NCBI GenBank assembly: GCA_000306725.1 | Contig: CP003083.1 | Span: 2,108,001 to 2,172,000, forward strand | Source of the DNA: Methanolobus psychrophilus R15 | Lineage (GTDB): Archaea > Halobacteriota > Methanosarcinia > Methanosarcinales > Methanosarcinaceae | Direction of reading: 5' to 3' | Length of the DNA stretch: 64,000 nucleotides | Shown: piece by piece, positions 17,925-21,574 of the stretch | How positions within the stretch are numbered: the first letter of the stretch is position 1 | Layout: every line of letters begins with the position of its first letter | Made by a program: the position numbers and the translations under genes | Notes under the pieces: generated by a model | The model's input: the letters and a program-made list of their open reading frames with translations, nothing else | Database searches by the model: none | Told to the model about the DNA's origin: nothing

Positions 17925-19751
17925 ATGCAAAAACCCATGCTCATCCATGATCCTGTGCACAAGACAATCCTTCTGGACGAGTTTGAGCAGATGCTTGTTA
18001 ACACTAAGCATGTCCAGCGGCTCAGGAACATCCAGCAGTTGGGGCTTGTGGATACTGTATATCCCGGTGCTAACCATACTCGTTTTGAACACAGCATCGG
18101 GACAATGCACATGGCATCTGTTATCGGTCATTCCCTTAACCTGGAGCCGGATGATATTCGCAAAGTCAGGGTGGCGGGGCTTTTACACGATGTAGGACAC
18201 TCCGCTTTCTCTCATGTGGTGGAGGGTGTACTGAAAAGGAATCCTCTGCTCCAGCCAAATATTAATGGCAATCGACTTATCAAACATGAGGCTTTTACGC
18301 GGGATATTATTTCCTATAGCCTTCCGGAAGATAATTTCATTGCGCGGTATGTGGAGAAAAATTTCGGTACCGATCCTTACGAGTTCTTCGGAGAGATAGC
18401 AAAGATCGCCACAGGTGACACTTCCCTGAAGAAGCCATACCTTGCGCAGATAATCGCAGACGATGTGGATGCAGACCGCATCGATTTCCTGCTCCGGGAT
18501 TCTTATCATACAGGTGTTTCCTTCGGGATGATAGACATGGACCAGATAGTGCGTAGCCTGGTCATAAGGAACGGGAGCATTGTCTTGGGCAGCCCGGACG
18601 GTTCTGGCTATGGCGAGGATATGGCTCTCACGGCAGCTGAGTCCCTGCTCATATCCAGGGCCCATCACTACACTGCTATTATTCACAACCCTAAGACGCA
18701 GGCATCCCGAGTCATGCTGTTGTATGCGCTTGAGGACGCCCTTGGGAGCTATGCGAAAAAAGCAGGCATGGAAAAGGCAAAGGAAGAGGTTGTGCTCTTT
18801 TTCAAGACCTATAATGATAGCGACCTTCTTGATTTCATCAGGTCGCATGCATCACAAAGGTCCTTACAATTGCTTGCAGATATTCGCGATGGCAATATTT
18901 ATGCTCCGGTTGCAAGGCTCAGCCAGAAAACCATTCCGCCTTCCACTCGGATGGCTCTGGCCACTATTGCGCGTCATGGAGTGGCTACAAAAAAACTGGA
19001 AAGCCTGCTGGCAAAGGAACTTGGGGACGTGCTAGTGGACCTGAGCGTTGCCTCAGGAGTTCCCAAGAGCATGCGCATTTCCATAGGCGAAGAGGACGCC
19101 TTCTTCTACGATGAGTCCGCACTTGCCAATGGTCTCGTGCGTGCAATATCAAGACAGCTGTCACTCACAGCTTTTGCGCATCCCTCTGTTGTTATGGATA
19201 TGGATGACGGATCAGTTTCCTTGAACCTCCGGGAAGTTGTTGAGGAACTGTCTCCGAAGCTCCTTCATTTCATACGCACGGAACAGTACCTGCCCATAGA
19301 AGGTGTGCTATTGCTCTTTTACGGAGTGCATAGTCTTTTTGAGAATGAGAAGGACGGCTTTGTATCCATTCCCCGGTTAAGGCATATCACCTGGCTGTAC
19401 CGCACTATCCGGCACCTGCGCGACTCTTCACGGCTTCGGAATCTCTTTGACTACTCCTTCCATGATAGTTACGGCTTCCCTTACAGCGACAGGCTCTTTG
19501 AGAACATACAGGTACTTGTTGCCATGGGCATAGTCGATGAGGATCTCAGGTACTATGAGAAAGGAGGGAGGTTCCGGCAGAGTTATGAATATGTGCTGAC
19601 ATGGGATGGTGTCGAATATGCAAGGATGCTTGCGGATGCTTACCAGCCGGAGTTCGGGGAGATAAGGGATTATCTTGTAATGAACAAGCATTCTATCCCC
19701 CGGGATATTGTTACTATCCCGGCTAACAGATACGCTTCTAAAAAACGCTAG
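17925..19751 (+). CDS. HD-domain phosphohydrolase (SAMHD1/YdhJ-like)
   Basis: The 608-residue protein carries an N-terminal HD domain: HTRFEHSIGTMHMA gives His56, and GLLHDVGHSAFSH gives the His-Asp pair at about 88-89. The order H...HD...D and the DVDADRIDFLLRDSYHTG block match dNTPase/SAMHD1-type enzymes. The long C-terminal half is helical and unrecognised. A TATA-like TTTATATATC near 17893-17902 suggests transcription starts near ATG 17925. It is followed after 13 bases by trmI. The nucleotide substrate is inferred from the family only. Confidence 0.85.
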   Translation: MQKPMLIHDPVHKTILLDEFEQMLVNTKHVQRLRNIQQLGLVDTVYPGANHTRFEHSIGTMHMASVIGHSLNLEPDDIRKVRVAGLLHDVGHSAFSHVVEGVLKRNPLLQPNINGNRLIKHEAFTRDIISYSLPEDNFIARYVEKNFGTDPYEFFGEIAKIATGDTSLKKPYLAQIIADDVDADRIDFLLRDSYHTGVSFGMIDMDQIVRSLVIRNGSIVLGSPDGSGYGEDMALTAAESLLISRAHHYTAIIHNPKTQASRVMLLYALEDALGSYAKKAGMEKAKEEVVLFFKTYNDSDLLDFIRSHASQRSLQLLADIRDGNIYAPVARLSQKTIPPSTRMALATIARHGVATKKLESLLAKELGDVLVDLSVASGVPKSMRISIGEEDAFFYDESALANGLVRAISRQLSLTAFAHPSVVMDMDDGSVSLNLREVVEELSPKLLHFIRTEQYLPIEGVLLLFYGVHSLFENEKDGFVSIPRLRHITWLYRTIRHLRDSSRLRNLFDYSFHDSYGFPYSDRLFENIQVLVAMGIVDEDLRYYEKGGRFRQSYEYVLTWDGVEYARMLADAYQPEFGEIRDYLVMNKHSIPRDIVTIPANRYASKKR

Positions 19752-19764
19752 ACAGGTGTGCAAA

Positions 19765-20517
19765 ATGTTATCAGGCGAATTGGTCATGCTAAAAACCTCC
19801 CATCGTGGAAAGGTCCGGGAGTTCATTGTGAATGTATCTGAAGATGATTTTCATACGGATTTCGGGAAAATCGACCTGTCCGTACTCATTGATAAAGAGC
19901 CTGGAGATGCTGTAATCTCACATATGGGCCAGGAGTTCACTATACAGCGCCCACGTATGCCTGATTTCTTCAACCACGCGAAACGTTCGGGCGCACCGAT
20001 GATGCCAAAGGACATCGGTCCCATAATTGCCTATACCGGTCTCAATAAGCAGGATAATGTACTCGATGCGGGCACAGGCTCAGGTGTGCTTGCTATGTAC
20101 CTGGGTTCGATCGCAAAACGTGTGCTCAGTTATGAGATACGTGAGGATTTCGCGCAGATTGCCAGGCAGAACGTTCTCAGCGCAGGGCTTGATAATGTGG
20201 AGATACGTTGCGGGAACATTATCGAAGAGATAGCTTCCCTCGATGAGAGCTTCGATGTGGTTACCCTGGATACTCAGGATTCAAGATATGTCATCCCTCA
20301 CGTCAGGAAAGTTCTCAACCCAGGGGGTTTCCTGGTTACCTACTCTCCATTCTTCGAGCAGACAAAAGATATCCGTGAGGCAATAGAAGCTGCGCATTTC
20401 TATGATGTAAGGACCATGGAGTTCTCAGAACGTGAGATCTCCTTTTCAGACAGGGGTACACGCCCGGCAACTGCAAGGGTAGGGCATACCGGTTTCATAA
20501 CAATAGCACGAAAGTAA
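19765..20517 (+). CDS. trmI: tRNA (adenine-N1)-methyltransferase, TrmI/Trm61 family
   Basis: The 250-residue protein from ATG 19765 has an N-terminal beta domain and a Rossmann methyltransferase domain. The SAM motif is VLDAGTGSGVLAMYLG, followed by YEIREDFAQIARQN and FDVVTLDTQDSRYVIP, and the end reads ATARVGHTGFITIARK, a TrmI signature. Archaeal TrmI methylates adenines 57 and 58 in the tRNA T-loop. AGGTGTG precedes the start. Its frame also overlaps the upstream gene, but the chosen ATG removes the overlap. Confidence 0.9.
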   Translation: MLSGELVMLKTSHRGKVREFIVNVSEDDFHTDFGKIDLSVLIDKEPGDAVISHMGQEFTIQRPRMPDFFNHAKRSGAPMMPKDIGPIIAYTGLNKQDNVLDAGTGSGVLAMYLGSIAKRVLSYEIREDFAQIARQNVLSAGLDNVEIRCGNIIEEIASLDESFDVVTLDTQDSRYVIPHVRKVLNPGGFLVTYSPFFEQTKDIREAIEAAHFYDVRTMEFSEREISFSDRGTRPATARVGHTGFITIARK

Positions 20518-20526
20518 AGTTAAAAC

Positions 20527-21195
20527 TTACCTGAGGCCTTCATTGGTTATCCTGAAGTCACGTGCCCTGCCTTCGGGAAGTGAGCGATGCTTCCACAATT
20601 TCGCCCGCCTTGTACCTTCTCCTGTCTTTTCCAGCTGGATGATGGTCTTGGATATGTGTTCTATCCCGCTGCCGCCGATAGGTTTCAGGGTGCCTGATGC
20701 CATATCGCTGTAGACCTGGTTGCTTATGACGACTGTAAGCCTGTACTTACGGGCAATTCCGTGCAGGAAGCCTATCTGGTTTGAAAGTTCCCTTCTGGAT
20801 CGTATGCTGGACTCATCCTGGTCAAGCTCGAAGCGATAGAAGGAGGTTGCGGAATCAACTACTATCAGCCCTATCCTGTCTGAAATAAGCTTCTCGATCT
20901 CCTTAACTGCCGAATACTGTTCTTCAAAACTATTTGGTTCGAAGATAATTATTTCCCGGGCTATTTCTTTTGCGTTCTCTCCGGCTATCTGCCTGAACCT
21001 CTGGGGTGAGATGGCTTCAGTATCTATATATATGACCTTCTTGCCATTCTTCACGCATTCCACAGCTAGCTGCATACAGAGGTTGGTCTTGCCACTTCCG
21101 GCTTCTCCAAATACCTGTGTCACGATGCCTGTTTCAAATCCTCCTTCCAGGAGTTCATCGATAGGCTCACAGCCTGATGATATATGCTTGGTTAT
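20527..21195 (-). CDS. radB: DNA repair and recombination protein RadB, apparent ATA start
   Basis: RadB is a RecA/RadA-family paralogue of euryarchaea that assists recombination. The Walker A motif GEAGSGKT is at residues 30-37 and Walker B is LIVVDSAT; it lacks the long RadA N-terminal domain, as expected. A GTG at 21123 would cut off the conserved start SSGCEPIDELLEGGFETG. In frame upstream there is no ATG, GTG or TTG before a TAA at 21199-21201. ATA at 21193-21195 lies six bases after AAGGGGTG and gives a 222-residue protein of normal length. Confidence 0.85.
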   Translation of the reverse strand: MTKHISSGCEPIDELLEGGFETGIVTQVFGEAGSGKTNLCMQLAVECVKNGKKVIYIDTEAISPQRFRQIAGENAKEIAREIIIFEPNSFEEQYSAVKEIEKLISDRIGLIVVDSATSFYRFELDQDESSIRSRRELSNQIGFLHGIARKYRLTVVISNQVYSDMASGTLKPIGGSGIEHISKTIIQLEKTGEGTRRAKLWKHRSLPEGRARDFRITNEGLR

Positions 21196-21574
21196 TGTTT
21201 ACACCCCTTACCTGAGATAATTGCTTATAATGGAGTTCTTAATATACATCTTTTTGGCAAAAACATCTGTATTCAGATCCATTATCAACTCGGATTAACT
21301 ATATTTACCAGTACTGATACATATTGTATAGGATATATTATCTGTTAGGCCATGCTACGATCCTTTTTGTTATCATGGTAAATTTTTCTGTTACCAGATG
21401 GAGTCTGAAAAAGCATTATTAAGCTGGAGGTCATTTTATAATTTACCTCACGGTGAAAAGAACAAGTCAAAATGCAATGCCAACTGAAGCTTATTTTTTC
21501 AGATGGCATTGCAGTTCCTCTCCGGAGTGTACTAATATAATAATAGATTTATATCATCGAAGGGACGCGAGATA
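21196..21574. promoter_or_regulatory. Divergent intergenic region between radB and the nrd operon
   Basis: No gene is seen in these 379 bases. They hold the radB ribosome binding site, AT-rich promoter-like stretches, a small inverted repeat TGGTAA (21376-21381)/TTACCA (21391-21396) and a long hairpin at 21473-21513. ATAATAATAGATTTATATC at about 21537-21555 may include promoter elements for the redoxin gene. Confidence 0.4.
21473..21513 (+). promoter_or_regulatory. Long inverted repeat upstream of the nrd operon
   Basis: Arms TGCAATGCCA (21473-21482) and TGGCATTGCA (21504-21513) pair perfectly. After one A-A mismatch, CTGAA (21484-21488) pairs with TTCAG (21498-21502) around a nine-base loop. 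The element ends 61 bases before the redoxin start. No T-tract follows on the plus strand, so an operator or RNA leader structure is more likely than a terminator. Confidence 0.5.

Follow-up and report, generated by a model that had tools for sequence, protein, structure and literature searches.

Which codon begins radB in Methanolobus psychrophilus R15? The gene lies on the minus strand of the 64,000-nucleotide stretch of genome analyzed here (hereafter, the window). Read from an ATA codon at 21193-21195, it spans 20527-21195 and encodes 222 amino acids followed by a terminal TAA (20527-20529). The product is a RadA/Rad51 paralogue: it scores 252.7 bits on the RadB model TIGR02237, which exceeds the cut-off of 172.4 and places it in that family, and it matches the solved RadB structure PDB 2cvf with E=2.9e-37. 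On a second RadB model, NF006861, its score of 224 lies below the cut-off of 278. The source genome is a single 3.07-Mb contig with a completeness of 99.97. Among named relatives, the closest hit (97%) is a Methanolobus MAG.

The radB frame of the window has no canonical codon at its 5′ end

An in-frame stop, TAA (21199-21201), stands two codons 5′ of the ATA, and the codons after it read ACA (21196-21198), ATA, ACC, and AAG. The Shine-Dalgarno sequence AAGGGGTG occupies 21202-21209, with six bases (TAAACA) between it and the ATA. From this stop to a GTG at 21121-21123 (Val25), the first canonical codon of the frame, there is no ATG, GTG, or TTG. The preliminary description of the locus had given these coordinates and the same lack of canonical codons, and both are confirmed on the minus strand. 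Since the TAA lies two codons 5′ of the ATA, a longer N-terminus is ruled out in the window.

Initiation at the internal GTG would yield a protein of 198 amino acids, which uses the first canonical codon in the frame and still scores above the TIGR02237 cut-off. However, the loss of 24 residues lowers that score from 252.7 to 230.0 bits, and the residues 5′ of the GTG align with 2cvf, the alignment covering residues 5-221 of the window's RadB and pairing residue 5 with residue 2 of 2cvf. It thus holds true, as originally described, that the RadB N-terminus is encoded 5′ of this GTG. In addition, the corresponding column in 60 relatives contains GTG in just 26, another valine codon in 33 (GTA 14, GTT 11, GTC 8), and ATC in 1, with 20 codon changes on the tree described below; with GTG in only 26 of 60 sequences, the codon is not kept as a start. 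We therefore give an internal start almost no chance of being correct. The predicted folding of the mRNA around the radB start showed nothing unusual (z -0.66).

A non-canonical codon occupies the putative radB start throughout the family

We searched 111 genomes of the Methanosarcinaceae and found RadB in 108 of them at E<=1e-50; the three genomes without a match were left out, and the start region was read in all 108 that remained. The codon corresponding to the ATA of the window is ATA in 102 genomes and ATC in six, and ATG, GTG, and TTG are absent. Two genomes, G086 and G090, had GAA and ACA as the aligned codon and were counted as ATA after a one-codon upstream shift; both read ATA ATA here, and either of the two may be the start. 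The six ATC genomes constitute one genus (g10, matched to Methanimicrococcus), and the genus code matched to Methanosarcina (g7) has ATA in 30/30 genomes. A second collection, which contains many of the same genomes, gave 57 ATA and 5 ATC in 62 family loci. Its ATA genera are Methanolobus, Methanococcoides, Methanosarcina, Methanohalophilus, Methanomethylovorans, Methanohalobium, and Methanofrustulum, together with unnamed Methanosarcinaceae (two labelled HMMV), and its five ATC loci are four from Methanimicrococcus and one from a Methanosarcinales MAG that groups with them in the RadB tree. ATA or ATC was found in isolates and MAGs alike.

The preliminary description had left room for a sequencing error or a G-to-A substitution and had proposed comparing this codon among relatives. 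ATA is indeed a single transition away from ATG, but the presence of ATA or the equivalent ATC in 107 other genomes refutes an error or a private mutation, the probability of which is now negligible. The 108-genome codon count and the 60-sequence tree, taken together, led us to reject sequencing error, private mutation, and the internal GTG. As such, the conserved AUA or AUC is, on the sequence comparison, a sign of neither a broken radB gene nor a sequencing error, and the apparent non-canonical start is a family-wide trait rather than the peculiarity of one sequence.

The upstream context agrees with this reading. Between the ATA or ATC codon and the in-frame stop that precedes it, 57 of the 108 genomes have no ATG, GTG, or TTG, and in 27 a stop is close by, immediately 5′ of the start in 1 genome and one codon away in 26. 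The suggestion that radB initiates at the ATA behind AAGGGGTG is supported by the family-wide comparison (108/108 ATA or ATC), and we consider AUA very probably to be the radB start codon.

On the RadB tree, the putative start changes less often than isoleucine codons

The RadB tree was computed on 100 rows with the first 12 residues omitted, and a branch with an SH-aLRT value of 97 places the Methanosarcinaceae on one side. Seven of the 66 named loci were omitted from it: three were partial, L088 and L091 were present a second time as later regions, and L092 and L096 were dropped. For six of the 100 rows the start was coded as unknown, and the start states of the 40 rows from outside the family were entered by hand, among them L274 and L276, members of the families coded f2 and f4, which stand in the tree as ATG.

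The start column of the 60 family sequences (55 ATA and 5 ATC) shows a single codon change on this tree, compared with 9-19 changes among ATA, ATC, and ATT at each of 11 other radB columns that are at least 90% isoleucine. This difference indicates that the start codon behaves unlike an ordinary isoleucine codon. If the ATA were an inner isoleucine codon of a longer protein, begun at the GTG within GAGGTG or farther upstream, it should vary among ATA, ATC, and ATT as the other isoleucine columns do.

The same counts bear on whether the codon is maintained by selection. AUA might be the true start and yet a frozen accident, in which an ancestor lost its AUG, a strong Shine-Dalgarno sequence compensated, and there was no selection for weakness. 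Such a history would fit an AUN codon common to all 108 family genomes, the loss of AUG would be tolerable behind a strong Shine-Dalgarno sequence, and the ATG of two Methanoperedenaceae (see below) implies that AUG is not lethal everywhere. Without selection, however, ATA-to-ATG changes should recur, and none is seen in 108 genomes, versus 9-19 changes at the other isoleucine columns. Since this change is a single transition and is nevertheless absent in 108/108, AUG appears to be selected against; the two Methanoperedenaceae in which ATG is tolerated count against that reading. On balance, we hold a frozen accident to be unlikely, though far from negligible, and we think it rather probable that an AUA start and selection for weak initiation apply jointly.

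A further reading is that GAGGTGTaaaagATA is kept as a protein- or RNA-binding site and that the codon is conserved along with it. The upstream GAGGTG is kept in 95/108 genomes, as such a site would require, but the spacer between GAGGTG and ATA is constant in neither sequence nor length, and whole genera have ATC or ATT in place of ATA. The occurrence of AUC and AUU beside AUA suggests that the trait being kept is “AU and not G” rather than one DNA word. We regard a binding site as very improbable and a weak AUA start as the better account of the conservation.

The putative start lies behind a strong Shine-Dalgarno sequence and a predicted promoter

In 106/108 family genomes, a Shine-Dalgarno match of four or more exact bases is present whose end, in register, is 5-7 nt away from the codon on its 5′ side. 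The core GAGGTG is exact in 95 of the 108, and the window has the variant GGGGTG. The 16S 3′ end used for pairing has its match in the source genome, where the 16S-like 3′ end GGATCACCTCCT occurs at three places.

Pairing was computed between the 16 upstream bases and the 16S 3′ end. The median was -9.7 kcal/mol in the family (n=108) and -8.8 for non-AUG Methanoperedenaceae (f5; n=16). It was weaker for orthologues with AUG: -2.9 in f6, a family of the same class and another order (range -12.3 to -0.3, n=13), -3.5 in f3 (n=2), and -5.8 for f5 AUG (n=2). Mann-Whitney tests, which ignore descent, gave p=6e-6 for the family versus f6 and p=0.0014 for f5 non-AUG versus f6. The stronger pairing with non-AUG starts is to be read with the caveat that Shine-Dalgarno use differs between lineages generally. 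In radB, then, a conserved non-canonical codon is found with a strong ribosome-binding site at the right distance, two of the features of the infC and sigR kind.

In the window, a TATA box, TATATT, is predicted for the radB promoter at 21241-21246 on the minus strand, with a BRE-like stretch, CCAAAAAGATG, predicted 5′ of it at 21247-21257 and similar in several genera. A six-base TATA-like match was found 40-60 nt 5′ of the start in 92/108 genomes and at 50-54 nt in 81, counts that concern an AT-rich motif and were taken without a chance control. The BRE/TATA-like block (e.g., CCAAAAGATGTATAT) recurs in several genera. Given this position and the prediction that M. psychrophilus BRE/TATA elements lie ~19-22 nt from transcript starts, as described in PMC5378194, the radB leader would be ~25 nt long.

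The upstream codons bear on the case of the longer protein. In 76/108 family genomes, the 30 nt upstream contain no canonical codon in frame, which argues against it. In 27/108, the sole canonical codon within 30 nt is the Shine-Dalgarno GTG, in frame at -9. Five further genomes have an ATG at -18 (G035 and G069, and G090 with the GTG as well) or a GTG farther up (G093, and G063 with the GTG as well). In these 32 of 108 genomes (27 plus 5), the sequence would permit a canonical upstream start, and 12 of 21 Methanoperedenaceae likewise have the GTG in frame. However, the longer protein is impossible in the window, where the GTG is followed by TAA, and it is refuted there. In Methanosarcina, the upstream ATG or TTG at -45 abuts the predicted TATA box and so would fall outside the mRNA, and GAGGTG is itself the ribosome-binding site. 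A longer protein in which ATA is an ordinary isoleucine codon is thus extremely improbable, and we retain AUA as the start.

Within the Shine-Dalgarno sequence of the window, the GTG and the TAA that directly follows it (21199-21204) form a start-stop pair ahead of the ATA. A stop follows the Shine-Dalgarno GTG in 34/108 family genomes, including 21 of 26 in the window's genus, so this pair is not a general feature.

Outgroups differ in the radB start codon, and control genes mostly use ATG

Within f6, which we take to be probably the Methanotrichaceae, radB starts with ATG in all 13 sequences read (13 of 33 f6 genomes). Seven of these ATG codons fall exactly in the column of the window's ATA, and six lie one or two codons upstream. 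The ATG in the same column of f6 orthologues and of two Methanoperedenaceae supports the earlier proposal that the ATA sits at the expected first residue.

In the order outside the family, 46 of 54 genomes were read (f5 21/29, f3 10/10, f2 13/13, f4 2/2); seven f5 genomes were left out (G151, G152, G157, G161, G162, G163, and G165), and G167 had no match. Codons were not tallied for f2 and f4 because their N-termini differ. The family f5 was matched to the Methanoperedenaceae. Its 21 genomes comprise ATA in 16, ATT in 2 (G046 and G168), ATG in 2 (G054 and G042), and one unclear case (G154), in which the Shine-Dalgarno GGAGTG has become GGAATG and contains an in-frame ATG. The radB start thus flips among ATA, ATG, and ATT within the Methanoperedenaceae, at loci L188 (G054), L189 (G042), L193 (G046), L195 (G168), and L222 (G154). 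Among the ten f3 genomes, seven have ATG and three, all in genus g13, have ATC (L204, L205, and L206). In these three loci, in-frame GTGs occur just upstream of the ATC, and the start is ambiguous.

Control genes were read from 95 loci, in which some genomes appear twice. Of the 79 loci usable for the divergent glutaredoxin-like neighbor (grx), 78 have an ATG start and 1 has TTG; the other 16 loci had no usable grx row. The nrdD control has ATG in 37/41, and the remaining four show non-start codons, which were taken as misaligned ends. A methyltransferase control was uninformative, its assumed start being wrong (the codon was inconsistent among six rows), and a fourth control gene returned none.

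Pattern counts show no general class of AUA starts in the genome

In the source genome, the pattern GGAGGTGN{4,7}ATA (GGAGGTG-N4-7-ATA) matched 16 sites versus 30 for the reversed control, and the same Shine-Dalgarno pattern with ATG matched 38 versus 17. There is accordingly no excess of AUA behind a strong Shine-Dalgarno sequence by this strict pattern, which leaves weaker sites uncovered and excludes radB itself. At the 16 ATA sites, a canonical start lies upstream in every frame of at least 85 codons. On these counts, we rejected the idea that AUA-started genes form a general class.

A rough scan covered 464 kb (the window and 20 stretches of 20 kb), or ~15% of the genome, with 344 gene calls. 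It returned 18 Shine-Dalgarno candidates and 85 frames, radB included, in which the first canonical codon comes late. Inspection by eye, with candidates judged without relatives, found no second clear AUA case in this ~15% of the genome. Since the exact Shine-Dalgarno criterion missed radB, the scan is weak and insensitive. These results are compatible with the view that radB is a special gene rather than a sign of general AUA initiation.

Weak initiation may keep RadB scarce

We propose that radB is translated from AUA in the Methanosarcinaceae and from AUC in Methanimicrococcus. By comparison among genomes, the codon, the Shine-Dalgarno sequence 5-7 nt upstream, and the BRE/TATA-like block are conserved, and the leader is estimated at ~25 nt. 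Positioned in the P site by the Shine-Dalgarno helix, the AUA would pair through its first two bases with the initiator Met-tRNA (CAU) and be mismatched at the third; initiation would then be possible but weak, and the protein would begin with Met. The conservation of the codon suggests that AUG is selected against and that weak or factor-sensitive initiation is a useful trait. Its most plausible use would be to limit the amount of RadB, a recombination mediator, with respect to that of RadA.

The protein is the same as other archaeal RadB (TIGR02237; structures 2cvf/2cvh; H. volcanii RadB, PMC5480776), a RadA paralogue; the f6 orthologues differ in the start codon, ATG in the 13 read. For H. 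volcanii, RadB has been put forward as a recombination mediator that would promote the polymerisation of RadA on DNA (PMC5480776), so that the amount of RadB relative to RadA may matter. A role of the AUA start in keeping RadB low is plausible, and in the open-access literature consulted we found no report of harm from excess RadB. The non-canonical start may be an old, selected means of keeping RadB scarce.

Whether the start is also under active control is a more tentative matter. According to PMC8211752, aIF1 promotes discrimination against non-canonical starts. That a factor of initiation fidelity, aIF1 for example, controls the radB start is possible, although we would not expect it. It is similarly speculative that the AUN start makes RadB synthesis sensitive to such a factor (aIF1, or the condition of the machinery for initiation) and thereby ties homologous recombination to the state of translation.

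To our knowledge, archaea lack IF3, and we know of no role of RadB in translation. Both points concern the bacterial genes that radB most resembles. As described in PMC5472188, sigR begins with GTC in 32 of 34 Streptomyces and with GTT in the other 2, and the codon follows the ribosome-binding site AGGAGGTG; canonical start codons lead to excess protein, and IF3 represses the GTC start. Like radB, sigR has a conserved non-canonical start across a group of organisms and a strong conserved ribosome-binding site. Unlike radB, it is bacterial, uses GUC, encodes a sigma factor, and has IF3 control established by experiment, whereas radB is archaeal, uses AUA or AUC, encodes a recombination mediator, and is known here from sequence. 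By analogy, sigR is the nearest experimental parallel to the radB start. The infC start is ATT in E. coli and ATC in Streptomyces (PMC5472188). As in radB, this is an AUN start, mismatched at the third position alone and giving weak initiation, but the infC product is an initiation factor that represses its own start.

Characterised starts outside ATG, GTG, and TTG are very few according to the same source (PMC5472188), and the characterised non-canonical ones that we met in the literature are bacterial or chloroplast. Among archaea, we met a single ATA start, which arose from ATG in the nadA gene of a Halobacterium strain that had been engineered (PMC11834397). The main text of an M. mazei Ribo-seq study (PMC11456600) contains no word beginning with AUA or ATA. 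A search limited to open-access literature showed no archaeal precedent and no report of an AUA-started radB, which is weak evidence of novelty.

If the Methanosarcinales do control RadB synthesis in this speculative way, through the choice of start codon, radB would rank as the archaeal equivalent of infC and sigR, family-wide and with AUA/AUU/AUG variation in the Methanoperedenaceae. A family-wide archaeal AUA start at which AUG is avoided would be a natural case in which to ask whether start-codon strength sets protein dosage. Genetic tools exist for Methanosarcina, and that genus shows the ATA trait in all 30 genomes matched to it. The start variants of the Methanoperedenaceae offer a natural series on whether the ATG forms yield more RadB. 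Gene finders limited to ATG, GTG, and TTG would misplace the RadB N-terminus.

Observations at individual loci

The methyltransferase-like frame adjoining radB (19708-20517) was given a TTG start by mechanical call, and six aligned rows from relatives have TTG in 2, TAG in 2, and TTC in 2. Since the TTG is not kept in these relatives, the true start of the frame probably lies elsewhere. At L073, recorded as Methanococcoides sp. EBM-47, RadB groups with Methanomethylovorans in the tree and has the same start region, so the record name looks wrong. Finally, the Methanofrustulum RadB at L093 1501-2469 (= G034 C48) contains, after residue 51, a low-complexity insert of ~100 residues that keeps the frame.
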